Source: a virus
Strand: one strand, 5' to 3'
Virus record (IMG/VR): IMGVR_UViG_3300030103_005764
Location: 1 to 44,817 of that record
Length of the DNA stretch: 44,817 nt
Positions 1,553 to 18,510 of this stretch are shown in pieces (position 1 is the first letter of the stretch; every line of letters starts with the position of its first letter). A program made the position numbers and the translations under genes. A model generated the notes under the pieces. That model saw only the letters and a list, made by a program, of their open reading frames with translations. It made no database searches and was not told where the DNA came from.

Positions 1553-4500
1553 ATGGCAGGTCCATCTACATCTATAGAAGTATCCATCCAACAACTGCTT
1601 GACGGCAGATTGATTCGTGACGGTGCTGACCTATCCATAACTTCCACAAACCTATCGGGCGAAAAAGAAACGGTTCTGCTCAAAGACTACTTTCTGACTT
1701 CACCTGACCTCGCGACGACAACCGGTATCCTCAAAAGCAACATAGTTAACCTCTTGGCCATCGGCCAGCCTCTTGACCACGGCATGTTAGCATTTGAGGA
1801 TCCACAAGCGATAGGTAAGATAACGACAGCCGACGGTGCTGTAAGTGTGCAACGTATGGATCAATCGATCCAGTTGAACGAGGGTGACTTCATATATCTC
1901 AATGATATAGTCTCATCCAACACTAGTGCCGTTGGTATCGCTTTCGCTGACCAAACAACAATGTCTGTTGATCCAAACAGCACAATGGTCATAGATGATT
2001 TTGTATACGATCCTGAGAATCCCACAACAGGATCAATGAACGCAAACGTGTTGGAAGGTAACTTCTCTTTCGTTTCAGGACAGATTGCCAAAGTAGGCAA
2101 TGACGCTATGAAAGTAACCACACCTGTATTAACAATAGGTGTCAGGGGTACACAGGTTGCGGGTAAGGCCAACACAGAAGGTGAAGACAACGAGATAGTA
2201 CTACTGCCCAACGAAGACGGCACTGTGGGACAGATAATGATTAAGAACGAATCAGGTGAAGTGCTGTTGACAAAAGCCTATGAGGCAACCATAATAACAG
2301 ACCCATACACTGTGCCAACTGTTCCTGTGATATTACAGAAAACAGAAGTGCTTAAAAAGTTTGCAACCACGATCGCAACGACTAGGAAAACAGAAAAGAT
2401 TGCCAAGGTAGAAAGAGAAACCGAAGAAGCAGTCAAACAAAAAGAAGAAGCAGAAGAAGAGAAGGAAGAGTTGGAAGAAGAGAAAGAAAAACTCGAGGAA
2501 GAAGCGGAAGAACTGGAAGAAGAGAAAGAGGAACTGGAAGAAAAGGTCGAGGAACTCGAGGAAGAGAAAGAGGAAGTGGCAGAAGAGAAAGAAGAGATCG
2601 AAGAGAAACTTGAAGAAGTTTTCGAGGAAAAAGAAGAGATCGAAGAGAAGAAAGAAGCAGTAGCGGAGGAGATAGAAGAACTAGAAGAGAAACTGGAAGA
2701 AGTGCCTGTTGCGGAAAAAGAAAAGATAGAGCAAGAACTACAGAAGTTGGAAGAAGAATTTGAGGAGATCGAGGAAGAAGCACAGGAGATCGAGAAAGAG
2801 ATCGAAGTGGTAGCCAAAGAGAAGGTTGAAGTAGAGAAAAAAGTAAGAGAGATTGAAAAAGAATTTGAACAGGTACAGGAAGATTTCACAGAAATAGAAC
2901 AGAACATAGAAGTAATTGAGAAAGAAGTATTACAGGTAATAGAAAAAGAACAAGTGATCGAGCAAGAGATCAAGTTTGTTGAAGAAAAATTCGATGCCAT
3001 TGTAGAAGAATTTGAAGTGTTCCAAAAGGAATTTGTACAGGAGTTCGAGGACTTCATTCCAGAAGAAGAGATACAACAGTTCATCGAAGAAGCACCGATA
3101 GAACTTATTGAGGAATTCCAAGAGAACATTATAGAAAAATTAGAAGAAGAAAAAATTAATGTGCAGGAAAATGAGAACGAAGTGGCAAAGGACGAGGATC
3201 CATTTGCTGAAGAGAACGTTGAGAAGAAACTGGACGAACTGGATGAGAAGCAGGAAGAACTCATAGAGAAGGCCGACGAACTGATGGAGAAGGACATGCA
3301 ACTCCAAGAGGAAGCAAAACAACTGGAAGAGGAGGCCAAAGCACTTGAAGAAGAAGCACAGCAGTTGGAGAAGGAAGCGGAAGAGGCCTACAGGAACAAC
3401 GATGAAGAAGCCATAGCAGAGATAGAACAGAAGTTTGAAGAACTGGACGAGGAGTTCAAACAGATAGACGACAGTTTCCAAGAGATCGATGAGCAGTACC
3501 AAGAGATCAACGAAGACTTCGATCAACTAAATGAAGAATTTATATCAATAGATGAGGAGTTCCAAGAAGTGTTCCAGACCAACGAGAGCATGCCTATCAG
3601 GATACCGGAAGACGGACCCATGTATAACGAGGACAATGATGTGTTTGACGTACCTGAAGATGAACAAGTTGAAGTCAACGTTGAGGAATTCATACAGGAA
3701 GAAAAACAAAAAGTTATAGAAAACAATGTGTTTGCAGAAGAGGCCGACAATTTCTTCCAGAGCGACGAGATGCAGGATGTAGAAGTCGATGAAAACGTGA
3801 AGGACATGTTCATAATCAACACTTCGCAGATAGATGAATTTATAACAGGTCCTAATATTGATTCTGCCGACGACTACTATGCACAGGAAGACGAGATGGA
3901 CGACTTCTTCTATGTGGTAGACAACAACGAAGAACTATACAACACTGCACTGGAGGCTGATGACTGGTTCGATCAATTCATAGCAGACCTGGCAGAAGAG
4001 CAGAACATCAACGTGGCCCCATGGTTGGACATGCCAAATGACACAACTGTGTCTGAGAGCCTGTCGACAAACAGCACACTGGGTTACGTGTATGCCTCAG
4101 ACGCCAACGGCGACCAATTGACATACAGCATCTTGAGTGATGCATCAGGCAAGATAGCGATAGACGGCAACAGGTTGTATCTGAATTCTGCATTCGATGA
4201 TGTCTCTGCCAACACAAATTATTCCGTGCTTCTGAAAGTAACAGATCCATATGGCGCATCGGATGTTGACGAATGGATAGTGACCGTGTCGGCGGACCAG
4301 GTTTTATCAACACAACTCTCCAAAAGCGTTACCTATGGTGACATAGCCACATGGGGAGCCAAGTTCTCAGAAGACACAGTGCAGGATAACCTCTGGGCGA
4401 ATAAGACAGCACTTGTGATATCAAACGCAGACTATGGTAACCTACGTACCAATGTTGTGGATTTATTGGAAGCGGAGGGATTGACAGTGACCACGTCAAC

Positions 4501-5641
4501 AAACCAAAATTCCATTGACACTTGGGCAGAAGTCAACTCATATTCACAGATATGGAACCTCAACTGGGCGGATCATTCCAACTCGGGATCACCGGGTGCA
4601 TACTCAACCAACGTTAAAAATGCCTACGAGGACTACCTGCAGGCAGGTGGTTCGTTGTACCTGGGTGGTGAATTGAACGGATCTATCTACAACGTGATCA
4701 ACAACAGTGTTGTCTCAGCAGTGCAACAGGTTGGTGGAGACATGTCCTATGGAAGCACAACGACATCAGCAGTGGATTTGAATGCCGCGTACAGGGTTGG
4801 TCCAATTACAAGTAGCACATCTGGCAAGATAACTCCGTCGGCGGCTGTGATCAGCACTTCAGATGGATCATACATGACCAGCAACAACATTTCCGCAGAA
4901 TGGGGGCCTGATGTGTTGAACAACAACATACAGGGTACAGTCATGGCACACATGGACTTCAACTATGCCATGGGTACTGGTTGGGTTTCTTCCAGCCAGA
5001 GATGGTCTGATATGGTTTCAACATATTCAAACTGGCTACAACAGGAATCTGAGAACAACGCCGCCATAGCCACAGTTGACAGCGAGGTACTGCCGATATT
5101 CCGTTCAGTAGGTTGGGGTGCAGGAGTTTCGGTCGAGACCGTCACTTCCGGCCAGACAATGCTGGAAGTGGATGCATTCCACCTGGGCGACAACGTGTAC
5201 ATCGGTGGTGGTTACGGCCACATCGACTGGGCATGGGACGATTCCGAGGACACTGCCTACTGGGCCTTCAACGCTGACATGGACGGTGCGCCTGCGGAAG
5301 ATGATGACCACTACGGTGTGATAGGCTATGACCGCGACGGCGACGGTGATCTTTGGGAGACCACAGACACATTTGACCTGGACAAGATCTACATAGTGGA
5401 TGACTCAGAGGACTACATGGCACAGGATTCTGATGCACACGGACCTTTGAGTTTCTATGTTTCACCGGTCACATACAGCGGCGGCAGTTGGACGGTGGAA
5501 ACCGATAACGCGGTCCATGTCCACACAACAGATTACAATCAATATCTTGACCTCAGTTCAAACACAGATTTTGATGACATCAACTACGCACTGATCCAGT
5601 GTGAGTCAGCACTGATATCAGAAGTGGTGGTCACAGCATAA
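1553..5641 (+). CDS. giant FecR-domain, coiled-coil, cadherin-like surface/secreted protein
   Basis: 1362 aa with no Sec signal peptide. Domains in order: a FecR-like beta domain, about residues 75-240, with the VTTPVLTIGVRGTQV core; an extreme Glu/Lys coiled coil, about 280-680; a cadherin-like beta domain, about 819-917 (SDANGDQLTYSIL, LLKVTDPYGASD); a Rossmann-like or ThuA-like domain, about 950-1165 (TALVISNADYGNLRTNVV, GGSLYLGGEL); and a C-terminal region with an acidic Ca-binding-like loop DRDGDGD. The missing signal peptide, acidic repeat character and adjacent TolC, ABC and HlyD genes suggest a type I secretion substrate (inference). An in-frame stop at 1532 fixes ATG 1553 as the start. 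The 3' half looks more GC-rich than its neighbours, which could reflect transfer. Confidence 0.8.
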   Translation: MAGPSTSIEVSIQQLLDGRLIRDGADLSITSTNLSGEKETVLLKDYFLTSPDLATTTGILKSNIVNLLAIGQPLDHGMLAFEDPQAIGKITTADGAVSVQRMDQSIQLNEGDFIYLNDIVSSNTSAVGIAFADQTTMSVDPNSTMVIDDFVYDPENPTTGSMNANVLEGNFSFVSGQIAKVGNDAMKVTTPVLTIGVRGTQVAGKANTEGEDNEIVLLPNEDGTVGQIMIKNESGEVLLTKAYEATIITDPYTVPTVPVILQKTEVLKKFATTIATTRKTEKIAKVERETEEAVKQKEEAEEEKEELEEEKEKLEEEAEELEEEKEELEEKVEELEEEKEEVAEEKEEIEEKLEEVFEEKEEIEEKKEAVAEEIEELEEKLEEVPVAEKEKIEQELQKLEEEFEEIEEEAQEIEKEIEVVAKEKVEVEKKVREIEKEFEQVQEDFTEIEQNIEVIEKEVLQVIEKEQVIEQEIKFVEEKFDAIVEEFEVFQKEFVQEFEDFIPEEEIQQFIEEAPIELIEEFQENIIEKLEEEKINVQENENEVAKDEDPFAEENVEKKLDELDEKQEELIEKADELMEKDMQLQEEAKQLEEEAKALEEEAQQLEKEAEEAYRNNDEEAIAEIEQKFEELDEEFKQIDDSFQEIDEQYQEINEDFDQLNEEFISIDEEFQEVFQTNESMPIRIPEDGPMYNEDNDVFDVPEDEQVEVNVEEFIQEEKQKVIENNVFAEEADNFFQSDEMQDVEVDENVKDMFIINTSQIDEFITGPNIDSADDYYAQEDEMDDFFYVVDNNEELYNTALEADDWFDQFIADLAEEQNINVAPWLDMPNDTTVSESLSTNSTLGYVYASDANGDQLTYSILSDASGKIAIDGNRLYLNSAFDDVSANTNYSVLLKVTDPYGASDVDEWIVTVSADQVLSTQLSKSVTYGDIATWGAKFSEDTVQDNLWANKTALVISNADYGNLRTNVVDLLEAEGLTVTTSTNQNSIDTWAEVNSYSQIWNLNWADHSNSGSPGAYSTNVKNAYEDYLQAGGSLYLGGELNGSIYNVINNSVVSAVQQVGGDMSYGSTTTSAVDLNAAYRVGPITSSTSGKITPSAAVISTSDGSYMTSNNISAEWGPDVLNNNIQGTVMAHMDFNYAMGTGWVSSSQRWSDMVSTYSNWLQQESENNAAIATVDSEVLPIFRSVGWGAGVSVETVTSGQTMLEVDAFHLGDNVYIGGGYGHIDWAWDDSEDTAYWAFNADMDGAPAEDDDHYGVIGYDRDGDGDLWETTDTFDLDKIYIVDDSEDYMAQDSDAHGPLSFYVSPVTYSGGSWTVETDNAVHVHTTDYNQYLDLSSNTDFDDINYALIQCESALISEVVVTA
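2389..3590 (+). repeat. purine-rich tract encoding a long E/K coiled coil
   Basis: About 1.2 kb in which the plus strand is almost entirely GAA/GAG/AAA-type codons, encoding imperfect EEKEELEE-type heptads. The complementary strand is pyrimidine-rich and yields long Ser/Phe/Leu-rich spurious reading frames, which are not genes. Confidence 0.8.
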
Positions 5642-5644
5642 TGG

Positions 5645-5650
5645 TAAATA
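5645..5650 (+). promoter_or_regulatory. late box upstream of the TolC-like gene
   Basis: TAAATA, 10 nt before the ATG at 5661, directly after the stop of the giant gene. It matches the recurrent box seen before other genes in the window, but its GG flank is less consensus. Confidence 0.4.
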
Positions 5651-5660
5651 TGGGTATAAA

Positions 5661-7448
5661 ATGAAGAAACTCGTACATTACATTTTGATCGGAATAATGC
5701 TCAACTGGAACGTGGCCGTGTTCGCGGAAACGGACCAAGGCTGTGCAAATTGGGAAATTGTTGAAGAGACAGACAAGTACATCCAAGAAACCTGTGCTGA
5801 CGACGGAACAATGCAGGCAAGGATCAGGAGCAAACCAGTCGAGGGCATGAACATTATAGTTGTTGAGTCTACAGAGAAGAAAGAAAATCCCATAAAGAAA
5901 TTCAAGGACAAGGTCGAGGAGGCTCCCAAGGCCACTGCCAAGGTAGAGAAACTTGAGAAGATAGAGCAGGAAGTCATAGTCACAGAGAAGAAAGTAAAAG
6001 AATTAAAAGAAGAAAAGGATGTTGTTCAAAAAGTAGAAGAACACGTGGAGAATAAAAAACTAGCGGAGACTCCGATAGAAGAAACACAGAAACCCATCAT
6101 AAAAGAAGAGATTGCTAAAGTAGAAGAGGATAAAAAATCTGATGAGAAACTGGTTGAAGAAGCAACTGAAAAAGAATGGGCCGATGTTGACACAGAACAA
6201 AAAATTACCTGGATGCAGTTCCATGAATTGCTACCTAGATTGATTGTTGAAAATGAAAAGATAAAAGCGGCGGAACTTGATTACGAGGCCGCAGTCGAAT
6301 CGCTTAAATCGGAATACACAGCATACTACCCACAGGTAACAATATCAGTTGGCAACAACTGGGAAGATGACAGAACTCCTGCAAAGGGAACATATCCCAA
6401 TAACACGATAACACATGACTCCAAACAGGGCATACAAAAAAGTATAACCATCACACAGATGATCTGGGACGCAGGTAGAACCAACGCAATGATTGACAAG
6501 GCCAAAGCGGCGGCTCAGCAGGCACACTACAGGTTAGAACTTGTGAAAGAGGATGTTGTGATCGAGGCAATCAACGCATGGTTGAATTTACAGAAGGCAT
6601 ACAACACACATGAAGCAAATAAAAAAGTAGAAGCCAACGCCAAGATTACACTTGCAATGACCATAGAGAAAGTCAAAAAAGGTGAAGGATCTAAACTAGA
6701 GCAACTGCAAATTGAACAACAGTACAGAACGTATCAAACACTATCAATGACAAGCAGACTAGGTCTTGATTCGGCCATACAAAGATTTCAAAATGTCTGG
6801 AGATGGAAACCACACAACATCGCAGAGATGCCTGCGCCTTTGGCAGATGCATTGGGTATTATACCTATGCAGGGCACCGCGGTAACAAACAACACAACAT
6901 TACGTATTGCCAGCATGGACATCACAATAGCACAGGAGCAGTTAAATTTTGACCGTGCTGAATTCAAACCAAGGATAGACGGCAAACTTTCGTATACTGA
7001 AAAAGACGGAGAACTGGCAGGAGGTTATGACACTGACGAATCTCAAAAAGAAGAGTGGAGGGCAGATGTAACAATGACTTGGAAAGTATTCAACTTCAAG
7101 AACAGGCATATGACCAACGCAGACAGATCTAGATTGAATGCGGCAAACTTTAGATACCAAGACACATTGAGAACTATACAGGAACAGTTTGACAATGCAT
7201 GGAACAACTACGTGTTGGTCGAAAAGAATCTTGAGACACTAAAACGCACAGTCGAAATAAACGACGAGATGTACAAACTCACACTGGCTGACTTCCAAGC
7301 AGGAAACTCACCTATAATGGCGGTGTTTGGTATGAAGACAGCACACATCATGAGTGAAGTTGCATACCAGAACGCACAGATTGACCTACAGATAGCAAGG
7401 TACCAATTGCACAAGGTACTTGGTCTTGTAGATCCTATCATTAAGTAA
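5661..7448 (+). CDS. TolC-like outer-membrane efflux protein with N-terminal coiled-coil extension
   Basis: 595 aa. It has a clear signal peptide (about 1-22, MKKLVHYILIGIMLNWNVAVFA), then an unusual K/E-rich coiled-coil insert (about residues 75-170), then a TolC/OMF domain (about 185-595). OMF landmarks are ITQMIWDAGRTNAMIDKAKA in the first repeat, the long helical stretch after it, and a second repeat with VTMTWKVFNFKNRHM. TolC trimers form the outer-membrane exit duct of type I secretion systems. The extension is not part of the canonical family. It resembles in composition the coiled coil of the upstream giant protein, so a direct contact is possible (inference). Confidence 0.85.
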   Translation: MKKLVHYILIGIMLNWNVAVFAETDQGCANWEIVEETDKYIQETCADDGTMQARIRSKPVEGMNIIVVESTEKKENPIKKFKDKVEEAPKATAKVEKLEKIEQEVIVTEKKVKELKEEKDVVQKVEEHVENKKLAETPIEETQKPIIKEEIAKVEEDKKSDEKLVEEATEKEWADVDTEQKITWMQFHELLPRLIVENEKIKAAELDYEAAVESLKSEYTAYYPQVTISVGNNWEDDRTPAKGTYPNNTITHDSKQGIQKSITITQMIWDAGRTNAMIDKAKAAAQQAHYRLELVKEDVVIEAINAWLNLQKAYNTHEANKKVEANAKITLAMTIEKVKKGEGSKLEQLQIEQQYRTYQTLSMTSRLGLDSAIQRFQNVWRWKPHNIAEMPAPLADALGIIPMQGTAVTNNTTLRIASMDITIAQEQLNFDRAEFKPRIDGKLSYTEKDGELAGGYDTDESQKEEWRADVTMTWKVFNFKNRHMTNADRSRLNAANFRYQDTLRTIQEQFDNAWNNYVLVEKNLETLKRTVEINDEMYKLTLADFQAGNSPIMAVFGMKTAHIMSEVAYQNAQIDLQIARYQLHKVLGLVDPIIK

Positions 7449-7457
7449 TCTAAATAA

Positions 7458-7464
7458 TTAAATA
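7458..7464 (+). promoter_or_regulatory. T4-like late box
   Basis: TTAAATA, 8 nt before the ATG at 7473, the same spacing as the boxes at 11313, 42872 and 43736. It lies in the 24-nt gap after the TolC-like gene. Confidence 0.6.
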
Positions 7465-7472
7465 CACACATA

Positions 7473-8228
7473 ATGAAAAGTCTTATCCGACATCTATCCA
7501 AAGAACCTGGCACAGCGTCAATGCTGTTTACCAGCAGTTTCATAATTGGTATTTGTGCATTGGCTCCGGCATTATTCGTGATAATTGTGTTGAACAAGTA
7601 TCTCACATCGGGAATCACAGCAACATTGGTCAGCCTGTCAATAGGAGCAGTGTTGGCGATAGCATTCGAGTTCACTTTCAGACAGAACAGGGGCAAGATG
7701 ATGACTGCTTTCAATCAACGTGTGTATGATCCACTGTTAAAAACATTCGGAGAAAAATTCAGGAAAGCAGGACCACTCACAGCACAGCAGTATAAAAAGT
7801 TGGATGGTGCAGGCACAATGATAAAAAATATGAGGACATCTTCGATGACCAGTTGGATATTGGACTGGCCCTTTGTGTTGCTGTTTTTGGTTGTGTTGCT
7901 TTACATTAATTGGGCCGCATCAATAATAACAGCAATATTCATGATCGTGATGTACAATCTTATCACATGGAAAAGGAACGTGTCCATGTCACAGGACACA
8001 CAGAGCAACATCGAAATATTTTTAAATGGCCTACAGACAATAGTGATCATGTCAGTTGGTGCCATGATGATAGTAGCAGGCACACTGGACATTGGACTGC
8101 TGATTGGTTCAAACATATTGGCGGCAAGGGCATTACAGGGAACCAGCAAGTATGCAAAGGCAACAGAATTTTTGAAACAACGTGACCAAGCAGTGGGAGA
8201 AATAATAAATTATGTCAAAAGCAAGTAG
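7473..8228 (+). CDS. ABC exporter transmembrane domain (type I secretion type) lacking the ATPase domain
   Basis: 251 aa with hydrophobic segments at about 15-40, 48-68, 127-145, 147-165 and 190-222. The layout and local sequence resemble the membrane domain of type I secretion ABC exporters: the ALAPALFVIIVLNKYL segment, the following TL..LSIG segment, and IGLLIGSNILAARAL near the end. The protein stops where the nucleotide-binding domain would begin. No Walker A, Walker B or LSGGQ motif occurs here or in any gene of this cluster. At 251 aa it is also shorter than the usual membrane domain of about 300 aa, with the loop between the fourth and fifth segments missing. It overlaps the HlyD-like gene by 17 nt. 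Family assignment is by pattern only. Confidence 0.7.
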   Translation: MKSLIRHLSKEPGTASMLFTSSFIIGICALAPALFVIIVLNKYLTSGITATLVSLSIGAVLAIAFEFTFRQNRGKMMTAFNQRVYDPLLKTFGEKFRKAGPLTAQQYKKLDGAGTMIKNMRTSSMTSWILDWPFVLLFLVVLLYINWAASIITAIFMIVMYNLITWKRNVSMSQDTQSNIEIFLNGLQTIVIMSVGAMMIVAGTLDIGLLIGSNILAARALQGTSKYAKATEFLKQRDQAVGEIINYVKSK

Positions 8229-8913
8229 CAGATTCTTTTTTGCAATAACAACATTGTTTGTGATATGCTTCGTGTGGATGTCGTTGGCAAAAGTCGACAT
8301 AACGACACAGGCAGTCGGCATCGTTGTGCCTGAGAAAAATATTACGAAACTGGGTACAATGGTAACAGGTGAGATAGTTGCTGTAAATTACAAGCAAGGT
8401 GATGTTGTCAAAAAAGGTGATGTGATTATAACAATCAATCCCGGAGTAGGTTACGAGCCTAGAAACATTATTGCTAACATTGATGGCAGGATACAGGAAC
8501 TCACTTATAGGAATCCCGGGTCCGTGGTTAAACAGGGCGACGGACTTGCTATACTTGTTCCATTGGATCAGAAACTTATAGTGAATGGAAGACTGTTGGT
8601 CAAAGATAGAGGTTATGTAACAGTTGGCATGGAAGCAAAAATAAGACTTGCAAATCAGGATCAACTAAAATTTGATTCGATCAATGCAAAAATAATATCT
8701 ATATCTCCAGATGCTGTGCAGTCTGACAGTGCCGCATGGTATGACATAGAATTAGAAATAGAAAAAGAATTTTTCACAAGTGGTGAAACCACGTACAATC
8801 TTGTGCCTGGTATTCATGTGTATGTGTTTATATTAACAGGTGAGAGGACCGTGTTGAGTTACATCACAACACCTTTCCACAATGGCGTTGGACAGGCCCT
8901 ACAGGAGAGATAA
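8212..8913 (+). CDS. HlyD-like periplasmic adaptor without helical hairpin
   Basis: 233 aa; typical family members are about 390-440 aa. It has one N-terminal membrane anchor (about 8-26). The first lipoyl half (GEIVAVNYKQGDVVKKGDVI, about 53-72) runs almost directly into the second half (IIANIDGRIQELTYRNPGSV, about 86-105), so the coiled-coil hairpin that normally separates them is absent. The beta-barrel follows (VPLDQKLIVNGRLLVKDRGY), and the C-terminus ends in TGERTVLSYITTPF, matching the family ending. It would bridge the inner-membrane exporter and TolC. It overlaps both neighbouring genes, which suggests translational coupling. Confidence 0.85.
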   Translation: MSKASSRFFFAITTLFVICFVWMSLAKVDITTQAVGIVVPEKNITKLGTMVTGEIVAVNYKQGDVVKKGDVIITINPGVGYEPRNIIANIDGRIQELTYRNPGSVVKQGDGLAILVPLDQKLIVNGRLLVKDRGYVTVGMEAKIRLANQDQLKFDSINAKIISISPDAVQSDSAAWYDIELEIEKEFFTSGETTYNLVPGIHVYVFILTGERTVLSYITTPFHNGVGQALQER

Positions 8914-9038
8914 TGTTGAGTTGGTTCTTGATAGGAATATTGGTTGGACTGTTTATCAGATGCACAGCCAGACCTCACAAATCTGTTGAAGACAAATTTA
9001 AAGATCCATGGAACTGGACAGGATTCGGAGGCGGATGA
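8913..9038 (+). CDS. small single-span membrane protein (41 aa)
   Basis: 41 aa. The start overlaps the HlyD-like stop (TAATG at 8911-8915) and the stop overlaps the next start (ATGA at 9035-9038). It has a hydrophobic N-terminal segment (WFLIGILVGLFI), then a basic and a polar tail ending GFGGG. The two exact overlaps are the main evidence that it is translated. Probably an accessory inner-membrane subunit of the cluster; function unknown. Confidence 0.6.
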   Translation: MLSWFLIGILVGLFIRCTARPHKSVEDKFKDPWNWTGFGGG

Positions 9039-9391
9039 GCGATAAAAAATTAACAATTAGAGAAAGATGGCGTAAGGCCTGCACCGCAGACAACATAGTA
9101 GACTTCAGTGTGGACGTGTTTCTTATCGTATTTGACGTGTTAAGTTCACCTATATTGATTGTGATGAGAGTGATACGTTGGTTACTTGCCAAATTCGTAA
9201 ACCAACACGTGAAAAGTTTTATAAAAAGAATAGTGCATTGGTTCTTGGACAATAGGAAAATTAGATTAGAAAAAGGACAGAACATATTCCGTTACTACTG
9301 GTACCTGTGGCTGTTAAGTCCGTTTATTGTTTTTGCATTATGGATGATCACTGCATTTATTATAGGATTTAGACAAGGAGCAGGACTGTAA
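9035..9391 (+). CDS. basic integral membrane protein, unknown function
   Basis: 118 aa from the ATG at 9035. This start is chosen over one at 9008 because it makes an ATGA overlap with the preceding stop. It has a highly basic N-terminus, a hydrophobic segment around 25-50, an amphipathic basic middle and a strong C-terminal membrane span (WLLSPFIVFALWMITAFIIGF). No family recognised. It overlaps the cyclase gene by one base (TAATG). Confidence 0.65.
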   Translation: MSDKKLTIRERWRKACTADNIVDFSVDVFLIVFDVLSSPILIVMRVIRWLLAKFVNQHVKSFIKRIVHWFLDNRKIRLEKGQNIFRYYWYLWLLSPFIVFALWMITAFIIGFRQGAGL

Positions 9392-11316
9392 TGAAAATAT
9401 TCACAAGCATTTGGGCAGTCATTGTTTTTGCTATGGTGTTGACGGGCATAAGAATAGACAACAGTGACACTGTAAAAACTTTAAGATATAAGACCTGGGA
9501 CAAGTTTCAAACAATACAACCCAGGGAAACTTTAAGCGATTCGGTCTCTGTAATCAGCATCACAGAAGATGATCTAAAACGATACGGACAGTGGCCATGG
9601 CCTAGGCATGTCATGGCAATGCTACACGCCAAGATAGCAGATGCAGGAGCGATACTTGTAAACTATAATATTCTTTTTGCAGAGCCTGATAGAATGAGCG
9701 GCGTAGAGTATTTGAAATCAATGCCTATGACAAACGACTTGCGAGAACAACTGGGACAGGTGTTGTTGGACACGGATGCTGTATTCTCCGTAGTGTTAAA
9801 AGAATCAAAAAGAGCGGTGCTGATGATGAGTGTTAAAAATACTAAGGACAAAAATTTACCCAGCACCACACAGATAATAGAAAAAGGCAACGTTAAGCCT
9901 TGGTTGTACGAGTACGGTGGAATAGTGTCTCCACACGCAAAAGTTTCAGCAGGGGCAACAGGCATGGGAGTTAATGTCACATCTCCAGAACCAGATGCGG
10001 TTGTGAGGAAGATGCCTGTGCTGATACGGATAAATGGAAAAATTTATCCCAGCATGATACTAGAAAATGTAAGACTGCTTAACGGCTCCAAAAGGATCAA
10101 GGTGATAGCAAAGGAACATGGCATAGACGAAGTGCTTGTAAGCAAGAAGGCGGGCATACCTGTAAACCACAACGCAGAGATGTATATCAACTATGCTGAT
10201 CCTAAGATGTACGTGAATATGTCAGCAACAGACATCCTCACAGACAACTTCAATGAGAATAAGATTAAAGACAGAATAGTTGTTGTTGGATTGGATGCCG
10301 CAGGATTGAGTGTGCTAAAATATACACCACATGGACTGACAACAGACCAGAACATTACTGCTCAAGCATTAGATACATTATTGACCGGCAAGTATCTTGT
10401 GAGGACACCACAGGCAGACACATACGAAATTGTGTTCCTAGCACTATTATTATTGCTCTTAATTTTAGTACTGCCTAGAACAAGTGTCTTGTTGGCTGTG
10501 CCTCTTTTACTATTTGTGGAAGTGGGTGTTGCCTACGGAGCATTCATGGCATACGCAAACAAGGGATTTCTTGTTGATCCATCTTGGATCATGCTGTCTG
10601 TGTTTTTGATTTGGTCGCACAGCACATACAATAATTTTGCAACACAGAGCAGATTAAGGAAGCAAATCAAAAAACAATTCGAACACTATCTTGATCCTGG
10701 CATGGTTAAGAAATTGCAGAAGGATCCATCATTGTTAAAACTTGGTGGCGAAACAAGAAACATGACTTTTTTGTTCTGTGACATCAGAGGCTTCACACCT
10801 ATCAGTGAGAAGTACAAAGGTAACCCGGCCGGGCTCACAAAACTTATAAATCGTTTCTTAACGAAAATGACAGATGTTATAATCAAAAATGGCGGAACCA
10901 TAGACAAGTTTATGGGAGACTGCATCATGGCATTCTGGAATGCTCCTTTGGAAGATACACAGCACGAAGATCATGCCATTCAAGCGGCAATTGAAATGCA
11001 AGAAGAATTATTAAAACTCAATACACAATTAGCCGCAGAAGCACTGCCGCAGATCAAAATAGGTATCGGTATAAACACAGGAAACGCCCTTGTGGGGAAC
11101 ATGGGTTCGGAACAGCGATTCGACTACTCTGTAATAGGAGACCCAGTCAATTTGGCATCAAGATTGGAAAGTAGCAGTAAGACATTAGGGCACACTGTGA
11201 TTGTTGGCGAAGAAACAGTGAATGCCGCAAGGCACAGTTATAATTTTGACTACGTAGATACAATTCAGGTAAAAGGGAAATCAGAGATGATAAAGGTGTT
11301 TACGATACCTAGTTAA
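9391..11316 (+). CDS. CHASE2-domain class III adenylate cyclase
   Basis: 641 aa. A short N-terminal membrane segment is followed by an extracytoplasmic CHASE2 sensor (about 30-330; SVISITEDDLKRYGQWPWPR motif), three closely spaced hydrophobic segments (about 345-410) and a cytoplasmic class III cyclase domain (about 440-641). Catalytic residues look intact: metal-binding D464 (FCDIRGFT) and D510 (MGDCIMAFW), purine-specifying K506 and D584, and transition-state N587 and R591 (GDPVNLASRLES). K plus D is the adenylate-type signature, so cAMP is the expected product. From memory, CHASE2 cyclases in bacteria often neighbour FecR-domain proteins, as here. An active cyclase on a phage could alter host signalling (inference). 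Confidence 0.9.
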   Translation: MKIFTSIWAVIVFAMVLTGIRIDNSDTVKTLRYKTWDKFQTIQPRETLSDSVSVISITEDDLKRYGQWPWPRHVMAMLHAKIADAGAILVNYNILFAEPDRMSGVEYLKSMPMTNDLREQLGQVLLDTDAVFSVVLKESKRAVLMMSVKNTKDKNLPSTTQIIEKGNVKPWLYEYGGIVSPHAKVSAGATGMGVNVTSPEPDAVVRKMPVLIRINGKIYPSMILENVRLLNGSKRIKVIAKEHGIDEVLVSKKAGIPVNHNAEMYINYADPKMYVNMSATDILTDNFNENKIKDRIVVVGLDAAGLSVLKYTPHGLTTDQNITAQALDTLLTGKYLVRTPQADTYEIVFLALLLLLLILVLPRTSVLLAVPLLLFVEVGVAYGAFMAYANKGFLVDPSWIMLSVFLIWSHSTYNNFATQSRLRKQIKKQFEHYLDPGMVKKLQKDPSLLKLGGETRNMTFLFCDIRGFTPISEKYKGNPAGLTKLINRFLTKMTDVIIKNGGTIDKFMGDCIMAFWNAPLEDTQHEDHAIQAAIEMQEELLKLNTQLAAEALPQIKIGIGINTGNALVGNMGSEQRFDYSVIGDPVNLASRLESSSKTLGHTVIVGEETVNAARHSYNFDYVDTIQVKGKSEMIKVFTIPS

Positions 11317-11319
11317 ATA
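11313..11319 (+). promoter_or_regulatory. T4-like late box
   Basis: TTAAATA overlapping the cyclase stop codon, 8 nt before the ATG at 11328. The spacing equals that of several other boxes. Confidence 0.55.
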
Positions 11320-11327
11320 CCCTTACA

Positions 11328-11606
11328 ATGAGTTTTTGGACATTAGTTGCTGATCTGGGATTGCCGATAGCGGCCACAGCCGGTATGGGTGTGTTTATAC
11401 TATTCATAATAAAATATATTCTAAACGGTATTGTCGGTTCCATCAAATTTATCGAGAGCGTGATTACGCAATTGGATAACAGAGTGAAAACAATGAACAA
11501 CGATATCATCAAGATAGATCAAGAAGTATCTGAACAATTGGGCATACCAATAGACACAGACAGAGTGGCCCGTGCTGACGGCAAAACTGATGCGAGGAAA
11601 GACTAA
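11328..11606 (+). CDS. small holin-like membrane protein A
   Basis: 92 aa. It has a short N-terminus, one membrane span (about 8-35) and a coiled-coil-like cytoplasmic tail with LDNRVKTMNNDIIKID. It is similar in layout and sequence to the next gene (LGLP/YGFP before the span, LDN/MxND motifs after it), so the two look like a tandem duplication. The shape resembles BhlA/UviB-type holin-like proteins. Alternatively it is a structural subunit of the secretion cluster. TAATG overlap with the next gene. Confidence 0.6.
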   Translation: MSFWTLVADLGLPIAATAGMGVFILFIIKYILNGIVGSIKFIESVITQLDNRVKTMNNDIIKIDQEVSEQLGIPIDTDRVARADGKTDARKD

Positions 11607-11833
11607 TGGATATCGTTACTATGATAAACGATTACGGTTTCCCCACAGTGGCGGTATTTTTCCTTGCATATTTTATCTATTTTTTGTGGAAATTTATAAC
11701 CACAGAAATAACGCCTAAATTGGCTTCAACATCAAAGACATTGATTGCTCTCATAGACAGAATACGTATGTTAGACAATGACCTAATCAGGTTACGAACT
11801 AAAGTGCGTACTTTCCGACAACAAAAAAAGTAG
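11606..11833 (+). CDS. small holin-like membrane protein B, paralogue of the preceding gene
   Basis: 75 aa. One membrane span (about 10-32) is followed by a polar helix with the same LDNDL pattern as the preceding protein and a basic tail (RTKVRTFRQQKK). Its start overlaps the preceding stop (TAATG). The pair could form hetero-oligomers (inference from similarity and coupling). No enzyme motif. Confidence 0.6.
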   Translation: MDIVTMINDYGFPTVAVFFLAYFIYFLWKFITTEITPKLASTSKTLIALIDRIRMLDNDLIRLRTKVRTFRQQKK

Positions 11834-11859
11834 TAAGTACTTTTAGGTCAGGAGAGCAA

Positions 11860-12117
11860 ATGAAATTTTTCATGGTTATAATTTTTTGTATGGGTGCGGA
11901 CTTTTGTGAAGCAATCTATGAACAAACACCGTATGACAGCAGACAAATCTGTCAACAAGAAGCGGCCACAGTAAGGAACTACATGATAGATGCATTTCCT
12001 GAAAGTAGTGGAGAAATTCATTGTATGAGCCAAGAAGAATTGGCGGACTACAATCGTTTCTTAGAAAACGGTGGAAAGCCATCCATAAATCCACCTAGTC
12101 CAACATCTGGCGCCTAA
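11860..12117 (+). CDS. small putative exported protein with conserved cysteines
   Basis: 85 aa. A hydrophobic N-terminus (MKFFMVIIFCMGADFCEA) is consistent with a signal peptide. The mature part is polar with Cys pairs (C34 and C55 region) and a Pro-rich end. A Shine-Dalgarno (AGGAG) lies 6 nt before the ATG, supporting this start. It ends the same-strand secretion cluster, just before a sigma70-type promoter. Unknown role. Confidence 0.6.
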   Translation: MKFFMVIIFCMGADFCEAIYEQTPYDSRQICQQEAATVRNYMIDAFPESSGEIHCMSQEELADYNRFLENGGKPSINPPSPTSGA

Positions 12118-12146
12118 TTGACATTACCAAACTTTTAGTGTATAGT
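12118..12146 (+). promoter_or_regulatory. sigma70-type promoter, predicted leaderless
   Basis: TTGACA at 12118-12123, a 17-nt spacer, then TATAGT at 12141-12146. The ATG at 12152 follows after only 5 nt, so the first transcribed base should fall at the start codon. Confidence 0.75.
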
Positions 12147-12151
12147 TGCGT

Positions 12152-12691
12152 ATGATCCACGCAATGATAGATTTAGAAACATTAAGCACAAATCCAAACG
12201 CGGTCATTCTTACGCTTGGTGCTGTGAAATTTGACCCATATACAGTGATGAAACCGTACGATGACTTATACTTTAGGGTAGATGTGGATAGTCAGACAGA
12301 AATGGGCAGAGATGTCATGCAAGACACATTAGACTGGTGGGGCAAACAACCAAAAGAAATATCCGAAGAAGCATTAAGTGATGACGACAGATTACCTCTC
12401 AACGACATGGTCAAAGCCATTAACAAATGGAGTGTTGGCGTTGATGTGTTTTGGTGCCAAGGCCCGCTATTCGACTATGCAATCTTACAGGACATTTACA
12501 CACAGTTGGGACATCCACAACCATGGCAGTATTGGCAAATACGTGATTCAAGAACACTGTTCAGTTTGGTGCCACGCGACAATGAAAAAAGGGAAGGCCA
12601 TCACAATGCATTACAGGATTGTATTTTCCAAGCAAAAAAGGTACAAAAAATTTACAAACAATTAGGAATAGTAAGTCAAAGTAAATATTAA
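12152..12691 (+). CDS. DEDDh 3'-5' exonuclease, DexA-like
   Basis: 179 aa. Exonuclease motifs in order: DLE (D7, E9), WCQGPLFDYAIL (D108) and GHHNALQDC (H151, D156), the DEDDh set. The overall sequence resembles the Rv2179c/T4 DexA-type family, which degrades single-stranded nucleic acid. The start at 12152 is chosen from the promoter position; an in-frame TTG at 12146 lies inside the -10 box and is unlikely. The SET gene follows after one base. Confidence 0.85.
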   Translation: MIHAMIDLETLSTNPNAVILTLGAVKFDPYTVMKPYDDLYFRVDVDSQTEMGRDVMQDTLDWWGKQPKEISEEALSDDDRLPLNDMVKAINKWSVGVDVFWCQGPLFDYAILQDIYTQLGHPQPWQYWQIRDSRTLFSLVPRDNEKREGHHNALQDCIFQAKKVQKIYKQLGIVSQSKY

Positions 12692-14032: not shown

Positions 14033-14039
14033 TTAAATA
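14033..14039 (+). promoter_or_regulatory. T4-like late box
   Basis: TTAAATA, 5 nt before the ATG at 14045. An earlier in-frame ATG at 14039 overlaps the box itself, which argues for the 14045 start. Confidence 0.5.
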
Positions 14040-14044
14040 TGCAT

Positions 14045-14692
14045 ATGACGAAGTACGTAAGCATCATAGGAAACGGTGAATCAAGAAGAGGATTCGACAT
14101 CACACCATTAAAAAATGTTACCACAATGGTGGGGTGCAACGCTATTTTCAGAGACCATAATTTAGAATATATTGTTGCTTGTGATAGGCATATGTGCCAG
14201 GAGGCGGCCAACACATGTGGTAAAAACACAACCATATACACAAGAGAGAACTGGTACCAACAATTTGCATATTGGCCAAATGTGAAGTGTGTGCCTGCAC
14301 TGCCTTACGATGGAGATAAAAGACAGGACGATCCTTTCCATTGGGGCACAGGACAGTTTGCGGCACTGGTTGGAATGAGTTTCAAACCCAAGGCAATTTT
14401 TTTAGTTGGAATGGATCTTTATGGCATAGGTGAACACAAAGGGCCAGAAGGCGTGAATAATATCTACAAAGGAACCCAAGGTTATACCTATATCAAAAGG
14501 CCAGTTGATCCTAGATACTGGATATATCAGTTTAATAAATTATTCCAACATTCAGACTGCCGATGGATCATAGTGAACAACGAGGATTGGAAAATGCCCG
14601 ATGAATGGAAACAAAATAAAAATGTTTTCCAGGACACCTACGAAGGACTGGCGAAATGGATCAACAACCAGATGAATAAAAAAGATGAGTAA
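14045..14692 (+). CDS. GT42/DUF115-like putative glycosyltransferase, copy 1
   Basis: 215 aa. The N-terminal motif SIIGNGESRRGFDITPLK with the following GCNAIFRD resembles the nucleotide-sugar fold of CstII-type sialyltransferases and DUF115 proteins (a GNGPS-like loop, then a cN.~~rd strand). A second block, IFLVGMDLYGIG, matches the ~~~~GmD~~ strand of that fold. It is paralogous to the gene at 21023. It overlaps the next gene by 8 nt. Donor and acceptor unknown. Confidence 0.6.
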   Translation: MTKYVSIIGNGESRRGFDITPLKNVTTMVGCNAIFRDHNLEYIVACDRHMCQEAANTCGKNTTIYTRENWYQQFAYWPNVKCVPALPYDGDKRQDDPFHWGTGQFAALVGMSFKPKAIFLVGMDLYGIGEHKGPEGVNNIYKGTQGYTYIKRPVDPRYWIYQFNKLFQHSDCRWIIVNNEDWKMPDEWKQNKNVFQDTYEGLAKWINNQMNKKDE

Positions 14693-15872
14693 TATCTGTT
14701 CGGCACCATGGCGTGGTTTACACATTCAAACAGACGGAGGCATATCGACTTGTTGTGCAGGCGGATTTAAATTAGGAAACATTAACACCGACACAATAGA
14801 ATCAGCACTGGCCAGCGATAAACTAAAAAAGATAAGACAAAGCATAATCAATGGAGTCCTACCAGAGGATTATTGCAAATTTTGTATAGATACTAGAAAG
14901 AATGAATCTACTCCAGAACAAGACTGGCACAACTCACTGAACAAAGATTTCAGCATCGAAACTGCAAATCAAGAATACCAGTACCCTGTAATTTTTGACG
15001 CACGATGGAACAACACATGTAATAGTGCCTGTGTTTATTGCAATCCAATGTTTAGTTCCAAATGGGCATCCATAATGCAATCCAAAGAACCAAAAGTAAT
15101 ACATGACAACAAACAAAAAATTAAAACATTTTTTCTAGATAAAGGATCCAAATTGAAAACAGTTGCCATGGTGGGAGGCGAACCTTTGCTTATGAAGGAA
15201 AATGCAGATTTATTAGATGTCATTCCTGATAATGTCTCTGTCGATGTTATTACAAACTTCAGTACAGATGTGACAAAAAGTAAAGTTTTTGAAAAATTGC
15301 TTGCCAAAAGAAAAGTACATTGGCATTTTAGTATGGAGAACGTTGGTCAAAGATATGAGTACGTGCGGCAAGAATCAAACTGGCAGAGGCTATTGAATAA
15401 TCTTAAAATACTGGGCAGTGAGGTCAGGAATCCACCTGAAAAGAATGATCACGAAATACAATTACACAGTCTATATCATCTTTTCAACGGTACAAGATTG
15501 TGCGAATTCAAAGAATTTTCCGCAGAGGCTTTGTCTTTTTTCCCTCACAAATTAAAAGGATATCCAGGTAAAAATATAGACATTGTATGGCAGAATTTTC
15601 AAGAGCCGTCCGAAATTTGTCTAGACCATTATGGTAAGGATGTGCTTGATGGATGCATTGTAGAACTAGAAAAATATCTTAAAAAGGATGTCAAGCCACA
15701 TGAAATAAACTTTTTTGAAGAAAAGATTACAAGATTTAAAACTATATCAACAAACACGTCTGATGAGACAAAAACAAAGTTGAAAAATTTTATAAAAAGG
15801 CACGAAAATTTTTTTCAAACACAAGGAAAATTTAAGCAACTATGGCCTGAGTTTTCGTTCATGCTTGATTGA
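14685..15872 (+). CDS. radical SAM protein with N-terminal SPASM/twitch-like cysteines
   Basis: 395 aa. Radical SAM cluster motif CNSACVYC (C112, C116, C119) and GGEPL near residue 163. The N-terminus carries extra cysteines: C5 in CSAPW, CC at 23-24 in GGISTCC, and C64 and C67. This is the SPASM/twitch-type auxiliary Fe-S arrangement placed before the core. Such enzymes usually modify peptides or proteins. From memory, similar genes occur in T4-like cyanophages with unknown function. It lies among glycosyltransferase-like genes, with an Fe-S carrier downstream. Confidence 0.8.
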   Translation: MSNICSAPWRGLHIQTDGGISTCCAGGFKLGNINTDTIESALASDKLKKIRQSIINGVLPEDYCKFCIDTRKNESTPEQDWHNSLNKDFSIETANQEYQYPVIFDARWNNTCNSACVYCNPMFSSKWASIMQSKEPKVIHDNKQKIKTFFLDKGSKLKTVAMVGGEPLLMKENADLLDVIPDNVSVDVITNFSTDVTKSKVFEKLLAKRKVHWHFSMENVGQRYEYVRQESNWQRLLNNLKILGSEVRNPPEKNDHEIQLHSLYHLFNGTRLCEFKEFSAEALSFFPHKLKGYPGKNIDIVWQNFQEPSEICLDHYGKDVLDGCIVELEKYLKKDVKPHEINFFEEKITRFKTISTNTSDETKTKLKNFIKRHENFFQTQGKFKQLWPEFSFMLD

Positions 15873-15896
15873 CAAATATACAAAATAGTCTATAAT
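15869..15896 (+). promoter_or_regulatory. consensus sigma70 promoter, predicted leaderless
   Basis: Perfect TTGACA (15869-15874), a 16-nt spacer and perfect TATAAT (15891-15896). The ATG at 15903 follows after 6 nt. No Shine-Dalgarno can fit between the promoter and the start codon. Confidence 0.85.
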
Positions 15897-15902
15897 ACAA
15901 GT

Positions 15903-16313
15903 ATGACTAAACCAATGGTAGACCATCTGATGGTACAACAACAGATAAAGGCTCCATATAAAAAATGGAAGCACATGGTTGGAGTGATATGCCTTAACCA
16001 GACATATAGAAAACAGGTAAAGTCTATTCTGCCAAAATTGTTTAAAAGATATCCAAACCCTGTTGCTTTTATCAGGGGAAGACAGAAAACACAAGAAAAC
16101 TTACTTAAACCTTTAGGCATGTGGAAAGTTAGAGCAAAAAGATTGCGGAACATGAGTGTTGACTATTTGAGTTGGGACGGCAAGGATGCCGCAGATCTAC
16201 ACGGCATTGGCAAGTACGGGTCAGACAGTTACCAAATATTTTTCCTGAACAACATTCCTCCCAACGTACAGGACAAAGAATTGAGAAAATACATTGACAA
16301 TCTTGTAGGATAG
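15903..16313 (+). CDS. MBD4-like HhH-GPD DNA glycosylase
   Basis: 136 aa. It closely follows the catalytic domain of mammalian MBD4: MVGVICLNQTYRKQV (25-39), LLKPLGMWKVRAKRL (67-81), the helix-hairpin-helix segment DLHGIGKYGSDSY (98-110), and VQDKELRKY (122-130), whose D124 aligns with the catalytic Asp (human D560). MBD4 removes T or U opposite G. There is no Fe-S cluster loop and no methyl-CpG-binding domain. Expressed from its own consensus early promoter, which suggests a role early in infection or in genome repair. Substrate could be uracil, thymine mismatches or modified bases. Confidence 0.85.
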   Translation: MTKPMVDHLMVQQQIKAPYKKWKHMVGVICLNQTYRKQVKSILPKLFKRYPNPVAFIRGRQKTQENLLKPLGMWKVRAKRLRNMSVDYLSWDGKDAADLHGIGKYGSDSYQIFFLNNIPPNVQDKELRKYIDNLVG

Positions 16314-16321
16314 TTTATAAT
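16294..16321 (+). promoter_or_regulatory. consensus sigma70 promoter, predicted leaderless
   Basis: Perfect TTGACA (16294-16299), a 16-nt spacer and perfect TATAAT (16316-16321), starting inside the glycosylase gene. The ATG at 16327 follows after 5 nt. Confidence 0.85.
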
Positions 16322-16326
16322 AAGGT

Positions 16327-16632
16327 ATGTTTGAAAATATAAAAGATGGAGATCTAGTAACTCTGAAATTGGCTTCGGGAGAAGAAGTTATTGCAAAATA
16401 TAAAAGCGGCGCAGACTCGTACATTAGTATCGAGAAAGCACTTGTCTTGATGCAAGGGCCACAAGGCCTTGCATTTGGTACATTTTTCTCCACTGCTGAA
16501 CAAGACAAACCTATTAATATCGCAAAAGACAAGATCACATCTATTGCCTACATTAATGCTAAAATCAGGCAAGAGTATGACAGGGTTTTTAGCAAGATAG
16601 AAGTTCCGAAAAAACCTGGAATCATAACATAA
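16327..16632 (+). CDS. hypothetical small beta-barrel protein, possibly Sm/Lsm-like
   Basis: 101 aa. The first 80 residues alternate short strands (LVTLKLASGEEVIAKYKS, SYISIEKALVLMQ), and this order resembles Sm/Lsm-type or SH3-like RNA-binding barrels. The KDKITSIAYI strand would be Sm2-like. This is a pattern suggestion, not a family match. It has its own consensus sigma70 promoter with the -10 box 5 nt before the ATG, and is coupled to the next gene by TAATG. Confidence 0.55.
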   Translation: MFENIKDGDLVTLKLASGEEVIAKYKSGADSYISIEKALVLMQGPQGLAFGTFFSTAEQDKPINIAKDKITSIAYINAKIRQEYDRVFSKIEVPKKPGIIT

Positions 16633-16889
16633 TGACACATTTTAAAAAACACTCAAAGAGTATTACTGCCCTAGTGGACGTAACCGAAGCACTTCTAAAC
16701 GCGATGGAGAAGCACGGTGTTGACCCTGAGACTGTATCAAAAAGGCCAGAGTTCAGTGTTTTAATACATTTTTTGAAAAGTATTATTGATGGAGAATTAA
16801 ATATACCCAACGAGCTCACTGACAGAATAAGAAACAGTGCTGAAGAATTAGGCATCGACCTGGAAGACATAAACAAAAGGTTACACTAA
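16632..16889 (+). CDS. hypothetical helical protein
   Basis: 85 aa, mostly helical and acidic with no membrane segment. The start overlaps the preceding stop (TAATG at 16630-16634), so it is likely cotranscribed from the promoter at 16294. No family recognised. Confidence 0.55.
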   Translation: MTHFKKHSKSITALVDVTEALLNAMEKHGVDPETVSKRPEFSVLIHFLKSIIDGELNIPNELTDRIRNSAEELGIDLEDINKRLH

Positions 16890-16961
16890 AAGTGACAAGA
16901 GGACTAAAAGACTTTCATCCCTCTATAAACACTCTGCAAGTCATCAAACTAGGAGAAAAAG

Positions 16962-17411
16962 ATGACTTACTACTCAACTAAAACATACGGACACAACATA
17001 GGACTATCTGCGGTGTTCAGACAACCAAACGCAGATCATTCACACTGCCATCTATTGCATGGATACAGTCTTGCCTTCAAATTTACTTTTGGGTGCAACG
17101 AACTGGACAACAAGAACTGGGCAGTTGATTTTGGTTCTCTAAAGCCTTTAAAGAAATGGCTGGAGAACAGTTTTGATCATAAAGTTGTCATAGACAGCAA
17201 TGACCCACACATTGATAAATTTAAAGAACTTGAAGAAATGGATCTTGCAAGTTTAACAATTATGGACGGAGTTGGTGCTGAAATGTTTGCCAAACATGCA
17301 TTTGATTGTGCAGATAGCATTATCCGAGCAAACACAAATAATAGATGCTATGTTGTAGAAGTGGAGTGCATGGAACACGGAGCAAACAGTGCCATCTACA
17401 GAAGAAAATAA
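16962..17411 (+). CDS. 6-pyruvoyl/6-carboxy-tetrahydropterin synthase-like protein (QueD family)
   Basis: 149 aa, normal length for QueD/PTPS. Motifs: NIGLSAVFRQ (12-21), CHLLHGYSL (29-37) with the catalytic-type Cys29, VDFGSLK, FDHKVVID, and a C-terminal block around MEHGANSAIYRRK that keeps the family Glu. Two of the three zinc histidines of E. coli QueD are replaced (the AAH position by Phe19, the HGH second His by Tyr35), although H26, H28 and H30 are nearby. Family role: making the pterin precursor of queuosine or biopterin. No other queuosine gene is in the window. A Shine-Dalgarno (AGGAG) is 6 nt before the ATG. Confidence 0.75.
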   Translation: MTYYSTKTYGHNIGLSAVFRQPNADHSHCHLLHGYSLAFKFTFGCNELDNKNWAVDFGSLKPLKKWLENSFDHKVVIDSNDPHIDKFKELEEMDLASLTIMDGVGAEMFAKHAFDCADSIIRANTNNRCYVVEVECMEHGANSAIYRRK

Positions 17412-18510
17412 AATAATCAAAGAAAAGATTGTTATCCAATATGAGCAAAATAGTGTATCAATAGATATCTATGACACACCCCTCGGAAATAGATTTTTAA
17501 ATGCTCTTAAAGATAATCTAAAAAGTAAAAGGATATTAGAAAAAAACTTTTGTTTTTTGGGTTGGGCGAGTTCAAAGAGAGATCTATCGCATCTTGTTGG
17601 TGAACTAAACAAGAGCATTGAGCAAATTAATTCATTTGATTTCCAACCGACTTATGAAAAGATTCATCCTTTTGTCACGGATGATTTCCAATTCAGTGAC
17701 AGACTACCTATCGGAAGGGATGATAAAATGATGGGACTACGTCTCAAACACGATGCCTGTAATCTACTACACAGGTATTTTGAGGAACTGCAAGGAACTG
17801 CATGGAAGATAAGCGATTTTTACAGGCAGGCCGATCCTGAAACAAAATACGCCATTAGACAACTTAACAACCTGTGCCATGAAATAGAAAGTTGGGTGTT
17901 ATCCTATCGCAAAACAAAGTACGAACCGGAATGGATCAGGCCATCTCAGATTACAACTTTCCTAAATGCCCCAAGATACAACCTTCACGATGAGGATTTT
18001 GAATTATTCAAGCACAACAGATACAAGAGAGAACTAGGTGGTGTGTATTTGCATTGGAGCCAGGTTGGCAAAACACTTTATGAAGTTTTCAGAGATGAAC
18101 ACGCACCAAAGATGACCGATGCATTGTGCAGTGAAATAAATCATCAAAAATATTATTCGGGAGAGTTTGATATAGAATGGGGAAGAACAATATCAGAAGA
18201 TGACGAATTTAAAAAAGAGGAAATGGACAAATATAGAAATTGGCTAAAGGAAAACAATTTTGACTGGGACGATGGCAAACTTTCTCTAGGGTATATCAAA
18301 TTAGGTCAGGTTAACATTAAAGAAACATTTGGAGACAAGGACTTTTTAGAAGTATACAAGCAAATGAATAATAACTTAAATATCAAAAAAATCTATACGA
18401 ATTTAGAAAACGTGTCTTGCGAATATCCATACTCACTAGATAACGAGGGTTGGAAGCAGATACAGATGGAAGGACTAAAGCAGGGATATGAATCACGTAG
18501 TTTGTGTTAA
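17389..18510 (+). CDS. conserved hypothetical phage protein
   Basis: 373 aa, soluble, Trp/Tyr/Asp-rich, with segments such as KHDACNLLHRYFEELQGTAW and LGGVYLHWSQVGKTLYEVF. I recognise no enzyme motif. The start appears to be a GTG at 17389 that overlaps the QueD-like gene by 23 nt. I found no better ATG near the 5' end. It overlaps the glycosyltransferase start by 23 nt. Context suggests it belongs to the modification island. Confidence 0.6.
   Translation: MPSTEENKIIKEKIVIQYEQNSVSIDIYDTPLGNRFLNALKDNLKSKRILEKNFCFLGWASSKRDLSHLVGELNKSIEQINSFDFQPTYEKIHPFVTDDFQFSDRLPIGRDDKMMGLRLKHDACNLLHRYFEELQGTAWKISDFYRQADPETKYAIRQLNNLCHEIESWVLSYRKTKYEPEWIRPSQITTFLNAPRYNLHDEDFELFKHNRYKRELGGVYLHWSQVGKTLYEVFRDEHAPKMTDALCSEINHQKYYSGEFDIEWGRTISEDDEFKKEEMDKYRNWLKENNFDWDDGKLSLGYIKLGQVNIKETFGDKDFLEVYKQMNNNLNIKKIYTNLENVSCEYPYSLDNEGWKQIQMEGLKQGYESRSLC

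Follow-up and report, generated by a model that had tools for sequence, protein, structure and literature searches.

A gene cluster carried by a T4-like marine phage is almost certainly, to judge by its sequences and by modelled folds, the descendant of a type I secretion system (T1SS) that has parted with its ATPase. The DNA analysed, here called the window, comprises positions 1 to 44,817 of the IMG/VR virus record IMGVR_UViG_3300030103_005764 (67,343 bases in all); the cluster occupies positions 1553-11833, on a single strand. The overall explanation that we favour, with a probability of roughly 45%, is that the cluster is an ATPase-free, T1SS-derived module that displays a giant FecR-domain protein on the infected cell. 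The initial annotation of this DNA had proposed a phage-borne cluster derived from type I secretion and lacking the ATPase domain, and that much is borne out by sequence and fold alike.

Layout of the cassette and the missing ATPase

The T4-like phage genes that are present specify a baseplate wedge/tail-fibre connector, a T4-type clamp loader, a DNA polymerase, an endonuclease and an endolysin. On the plus strand, an AlgH-like gene (455-1036; PF02622, 7.3e-28) stands upstream of the cassette, which opens with the gene of the FecR-domain giant protein of 1362 amino acids (1553-5641; PF04773, 7.7e-8; phrog_37870, 4e-34) and continues, on the same strand, with a TolC-type outer membrane duct (OEP; 5661-7448; PF02321, 8.1e-53; TIGR01844, 5e-31, residues 198-588), an ABC-exporter transmembrane domain of 251 amino acids (7473-8228; TIGR03375, 5e-18) and an HlyD-type periplasmic adaptor of 233 amino acids (8212-8913; TIGR01843, 5.9e-44). 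Between the adaptor and a protein that combines a CHASE2 sensor with an adenylate/guanylate cyclase (9391-11316; PF05226, 1e-39; PF00211, 1.8e-24) lies a small protein with hydrophobic stretches (9008-9391); it drew no match in family searches, and is an optional member, found in many but not all relatives. Two small paralogues with hydrophobic N-termini, both of phrog_18771, complete the cluster (11328-11606, 2.8e-29; 11606-11833, 3e-27). The downstream border of the cassette is a small conserved protein of 85 amino acids (11860-12117), whose homologues occupy the same place in relatives at 25-62% identity, and beyond it stands an exonuclease gene (12146-12691; phrog_255, 1.4e-51). Matches to the PF, TIGR and phrog profiles uphold all the coordinates and domain calls first given for the cluster; the "many short overlaps" that had also been described are found at 7473-8228/8212, 9008-9391/9391 and 11328-11606/11606, and not at the other joints. 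(Two features near the cassette may be recorded here: a 138-residue open frame on the minus strand between the AlgH and giant-protein genes, at 1023-1439, with an HExxH-like motif, VHEILHYLQ, is a possible metalloprotease; and radical SAM, glycosyltransferase and sialyltransferase-like genes lie downstream, at 14039-21766.)

Profile and model agree that the 7473-8228 product is an ABC-exporter membrane domain. TIGR03375 matches it at model positions 153-300 of 696 only, and its matches to LssB and PrtD models are confined to the membrane part. In a Foldseek search, its AF2 model (pLDDT 84.4) finds HlyB (8dck) as best match (TMq 0.74), with PrtD (0.70) and PCAT1 also among the nearest solved structures: a real ABC exporter fold, and not an unrelated membrane fold. 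The gene stops before any nucleotide-binding domain (NBD), just as had been annotated, and its relatives end likewise: 17 distinct full-length viral homologues are all 247-251 amino acids long, none of the 17 has an NBD, and their genes run straight into the adaptor gene. Might a normal ABC exporter have been truncated by an error of sequencing or assembly? No support for such an error was found; no frameshifted ATPase lies in the window; the same end, together with the same internal loop deletion (described below), is seen in the 17 viral homologues and in copies from a bacterial bin. Many independent viral contigs, moreover, show both this order of genes and the truncated ABC frame, and because these recur in this way the cluster is not the product of chance or error. 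The notion of an error is already refuted, and retains a vanishingly small probability.

Could the ATPase be encoded elsewhere in the phage? The cluster contains no P-loop, as was noted at the outset, and the window's only real P-loop gene found is that of the DNA clamp loader (39625-40554). A search of related phages for a stand-alone NBD turned up none of transporter type in two near-complete relatives, G008 (148 kb) and G002 (138 kb). In G008, Pfam identifies P-loop genes for a Clp-type ATPase and for an AAA-like protein, and others resemble MoxR, PhoH and the clamp loader in sequence, with no ABC ATPase among them; when ABC ATPase domains were sought across the window's record and 25 related ones, a single hit passed the cutoff, and this one reads as SufC. 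That ATPase (G002, 8045-8782) was considered as a stand-alone transporter NBD and rejected: judged from its sequence it is SufC, and it stands beside a SufE-like gene. An ATPase "encoded elsewhere", one of three options originally offered, is largely excluded for the near-complete relatives.

A few observations on these relatives stand apart. The SufC-like ATPase and the adjoining SufE-like gene (L011/G002) look like a phage-borne set for iron-sulphur assembly. G008 has a tmRNA (tag ADAELVAA; L246, 8170-8542) and tRNA genes near a contig end (L248). Among isolated phages in GenBank, the membrane domain and the duct are without a match, and only the adaptor (weakly) and the cyclase are matched.

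Further losses, parentage and selection

Two deletions go beyond those noted initially: the ICL2 loop of the membrane domain and the hairpin of the adaptor. In ABC exporters coupling helix 2, which makes one of the main contacts with the NBD, is borne by the loop between helices 4 and 5. Aligned with their bacterial relatives, the phage proteins lack approximately 56 residues between these helices. In HlyB, residues 298 and 387 are the counterparts of 154 and 189 in the phage protein, and in PrtD residues 180 and 251 are those of 172 and 187. In the AF2 model, helix 4 (147-165) and helix 5 (174-201) are linked by a short stretch. The ICL1/coupling-helix-1 region has been kept, and with it, in the model, the TM2-ICL1-TM3 part and the long TM6 helix.

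This pattern of retention and loss bears on another of the original options, a half-transporter that borrows its ATPase from the host, pairing with a full-length host ABC protein of the same family or with a host NBD in trans, and so secreting at the expense of ATP. Stand-alone NBDs acting in trans are normal for importers; the retained TM2-ICL1-TM3 part and TM6 helix also speak for borrowing, and some NBD contact is conceivable, the coupling-helix-1 loop being kept. The probable parent ABC family is, besides, common in marine Rhodospirillales (the phage membrane-domain profile matches 178 of 297 genomes sampled from one order, nearly all of the listed matches lying in NBD-sized frames). Borrowing is nonetheless disfavoured, because the loop with coupling helix 2 has been deleted as well; the adaptor hairpin has also been lost, and no matching ABC membrane domain turned up in the single SAR11 bin tested. 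We consider a host ATPase improbable. (As to hosts, two phage-type NBD-less membrane-domain genes, L122 and G035:C19, lie on contigs that had been placed in a MAG named "Rickettsiales MED657"; these are probably phage contigs, and a weak hint of host.)

The adaptor scores 150.7 bits against TIGR01843, below the curated cutoff of 208.65. Its profile alignment with HlyD (8dck) matches to residue 129 and resumes at 328; because of this skip, we conclude that the entire helical hairpin, the TolC-docking arm of approximately 195 amino acids, is missing. The AF2 model agrees: it is beta-rich, with helices at both ends only and a short turn, and the hairpin is absent. In HlyD, the tip of the hairpin is needed for TolC binding and secretion, and single substitutions in this TolC-binding tip abolish secretion (PMC3391258); loss of the whole hairpin therefore argues against a sealed tripartite channel. 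One adaptor, alone in the family seen, keeps a hairpin of approximately 54 amino acids (L107, 1753-2724), and the ABC protein encoded with it also lacks the NBD; since L107 is nested in the tree, its hairpin is either a late retention or a regain. The duct has an N-terminal extension of approximately 170 amino acids, with a Cys-containing stretch and a K/E-rich linker. As a candidate substitute for the lost hairpin this extension was rejected: its length is not conserved, and it is short in L059.

What was the cassette before these losses? Searching genome contigs for the FecR domain leads mostly to Rhodospirillales, including many marine bins. At loci L123, L128, L130, L132, L155 and L162, all on Rhodospirillales MAG contigs, a FecR giant adjoins an ABC protein of 554-577 amino acids and an adaptor of 428-443; in many cases an OEP gene lies directly upstream. 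The neighbourhood of giant, ABC, adaptor and, often, OEP genes is that of the phage; the bacterial systems differ in possessing the full NBD, a full adaptor of approximately 430 amino acids, and both the loop and the hairpin that are absent in phage. Near L123 and L156 there are cyclase-like genes, but of a kind other than the CHASE2 cyclases. Phage and Rhodospirillales proteins are 26-35% identical in the membrane domain and 28-31% in the adaptor. The Rhodospirillales ABC proteins have Walker A and B, but where LSGGQ would be expected their signature reads L[SAP][EVL]G[ITV]; among the ABC genes of this FecR system (L198-L234), the signatures LSEGI/T, LAVGI, LALGV and LPVGI occur with Walker A intact. 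The non-canonical signature may mean that this ATPase is slow or atypical, and that loss of the NBD had begun in this way. Sequence and fold show that the phage membrane domain, adaptor and duct go back to a relative of this marine Rhodospirillales system, which is the likely parent of the phage cassette. (A technical note: the apparently NBD-less bacterial ABC genes G134, G283 and G286 were set aside, their frames running off contig ends; among candidate short ABC genes, bacterial G279 has an ABC frame of 364 amino acids.)

The NBD-less phage membrane domains form one clade against the NBD-bearing bacterial proteins (support 100/100). The membrane domain has dN/dS values of 0.03-0.11 and the adaptor values of 0.03-0.17, so the reduced phage forms are constrained, and under strong purifying selection. 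Three separate domain losses might also be read as the decay of an acquired T1SS operon that has no present function. These low dN/dS values (0.03-0.17 overall), frames that are intact in all full-length copies, and the conserved gene order already contradict decay, which we hold to be highly improbable; the cluster is very probably functional and selected.

The giant protein and an exchange with curli cassettes

The giant protein consists of a FecR region (approximately residues 86-280), an E-rich coil (approximately 260-720), a cadherin-like stretch, a variable passenger and a conserved C-terminal domain. Inspected by eye, its N-terminus has no signal sequence, in agreement with its first description as signal-less. 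Its relatives contain cadherin domains, and in two of them, from L059 and L026, RTX repeats and a serralysin-type C-terminus close the protein. In the window's protein, family matches and comparisons of C-termini reveal no recognisable RTX or T1SS C-terminal signal; its C-terminus is a different conserved domain, common to L003, L007 and L020. It shares with the LapA-type RTX adhesins the character of a giant protein with a folded N-terminal domain, in this case as a putative T1SS substrate, but its FecR domain and E-rich coil are not the usual LapA layout. The LapA retention module (NF033682) matches it weakly (E 0.0067, below cutoff), as it does the phage giant proteins generally (E 0.004-0.02, below cutoff); bacterial FecR giants match at 1e-7 to 1e-8 (L155, 1.2e-8). 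In its sequence features the giant protein resembles proteins of the cell surface.

Set against the canonical T1SS (HlyB/HlyD/TolC; the LssB and PrtD families), the phage cassette retains the three-component gene set, with a clearly homologous membrane domain and adaptor C-terminal half, and a large signal-less putative substrate, with RTX-type C-termini in relatives. It differs in lacking NBD, ICL2 and adaptor hairpin, in its T4-like phage carrier, and in being encoded together with a FecR/CHASE2-cyclase pair. That pair recurs in the type VIII (curli) cassettes found in pelagimyophages and in Melnitz. In Pelagibacter phage HTVC008M, as in the Melnitz phages, a FecR protein is encoded along with CsgF, CsgG and curlin-repeat proteins, and so is a homologue of the window's CHASE2 cyclase (35% identity in the case of HTVC008M gp019). 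Paired phrog_18771 proteins are common to the two kinds of cassette as well, the HTVC008M homologue of the 11328-11606 protein lying immediately 5' of csgF. In the curli cassettes, the CsgG/CsgF pore and the curlin-repeat proteins take the place of OEP, ABC and HlyD.

The evidence that the two kinds of cassette occupy the same site comes from contig L092, in which a curli set lies between the same two genes, AlgH and exonuclease, as the window's cluster does (61.7% and 81.6% identity, respectively). Contig L047 (1-12100) has T1SS-type genes and, adjoining them, a second cyclase together with genes for FecR and CsgG: the two types of cassette stand side by side, with two cyclases. CsgG is absent from relatives G008 and G002, and none is found among the family matches of the window's cluster genes. 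The FecR and curlin-type proteins of curli cassettes bear N-terminal signal sequences, whereas the FecR proteins of T1SS-type cassettes have none (by eye); this contrast is to be expected if the curli FecR protein uses Sec and the T1SS-type FecR protein uses the cluster's inner-membrane component. (A stand-alone protein of the L092 curli cassette, 7522-9006, was considered as sharing the giant's passenger domain and rejected: BLAST E 0.25, hhalign probability 28%.) We read these cassettes as two interchangeable export modules built around the FecR/CHASE2-cyclase pair.

CsgG is an outer membrane diffusion channel (PMC7029224). The curli cassette of marine phages has been described, with its function called unclear (PMC7029224, PMC9004378). 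The texts of both papers leave FecR and the cyclase unmentioned; TolC goes unmentioned in the text of PMC7029224, and type I secretion in that of PMC9004378. Neither full-text literature searches nor these two papers, as searched, yielded a description of a T1SS-derived phage cassette.

FecR genes adjoin CHASE2 sensors in unrelated bacteria too, and the window's cluster encodes both members of this sensory pair. The Burkholderia FecR/CHASE2-kinase operon (BiofilmReg), which has been linked to biofilm formation, likewise encodes a periplasmic FecR-domain protein beside a CHASE2 sensor, but this sensor has a histidine kinase as its output, and its FecR partner has LysM and a signal peptide (PMC5192318). 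From gene neighbourhood only, one may infer a contact between FecR and CHASE2 in the phage; whether FecR signals to CHASE2 we judge to be an even bet.

How the module might work

Of the three original options, non-canonical use, such as display, fits best, and we think it rather probable that the cluster serves the export or display of its giant protein. The phage lineage has lost the NBD, the coupling-helix-2 loop and (in all but one of the members seen) the adaptor hairpin, the remainder being kept under purifying selection. The course of events in the infected cell may be imagined as follows. Late in infection, the membrane domain and the stub adaptor would form an inner-membrane pore or anchor that hydrolyses no ATP, and the giant protein would leave, C-terminus first, through this pore and the TolC-type duct, with the cadherin/RTX-like part, as it folds outside the cell, helping to pull it out. 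The N-terminal FecR domain might remain in the periplasm as a plug, in the manner of a retention module, where the CHASE2 domain of the cyclase could read it, so that successful display would be reported as cyclic nucleotide. The likely outcome would be that infected cells bear on their surface a protein encoded by the phage, serving in adhesion, clumping or a block to superinfection. This full scheme (a T1SS-descended exporter working as a passive or folding-driven conduit that shows the giant FecR protein, with the CHASE2 cyclase reporting, and swappable with the curli pore at the same locus) is offered tentatively. That the module works without any ABC ATPase has, to our mind, equal chances of being right and wrong: we know of no type I system that works without an NBD, and the weakest point of the scheme is the passage of a 1362-residue protein lacking a Sec signal across the inner membrane without ATP.

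That weakness is the opening for the main rival, according to which the cluster is no exporter at all: the membrane domain, stub adaptor and duct would make up an envelope sensor, a pore for timing lysis, or a decoy that interferes with host type I secretion or superinfection, and the giant protein would be freed only at lysis. Every part required for ATP-driven, sealed transport is gone; the CHASE2 cyclase and small hydrophobic proteins would suit such a role, and a part in lysis timing has been suggested for the Melnitz curli cassette (PMC9004378). But why, then, are the giant protein and the duct retained together in the cassettes long enough to show both? The adhesin-like cadherin/RTX parts of the giant protein are, furthermore, typical of secreted proteins, and the curli-type alternative retains an outer-membrane export pore. 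We regard sensing, lysis timing or interference as unlikely, and as the reading against which display has chiefly to be measured.

In these phage cassettes evolution has itself put to the test which parts of a T1SS are required: the motor, the coupling loop and the duct-docking arm have been removed, and the rest has been kept by selection. The exchange with curli cassettes joins two puzzling phage modules around FecR and the CHASE2 cyclase, and through it the curli genes of marine phages, so far unexplained, gain a testable partner.
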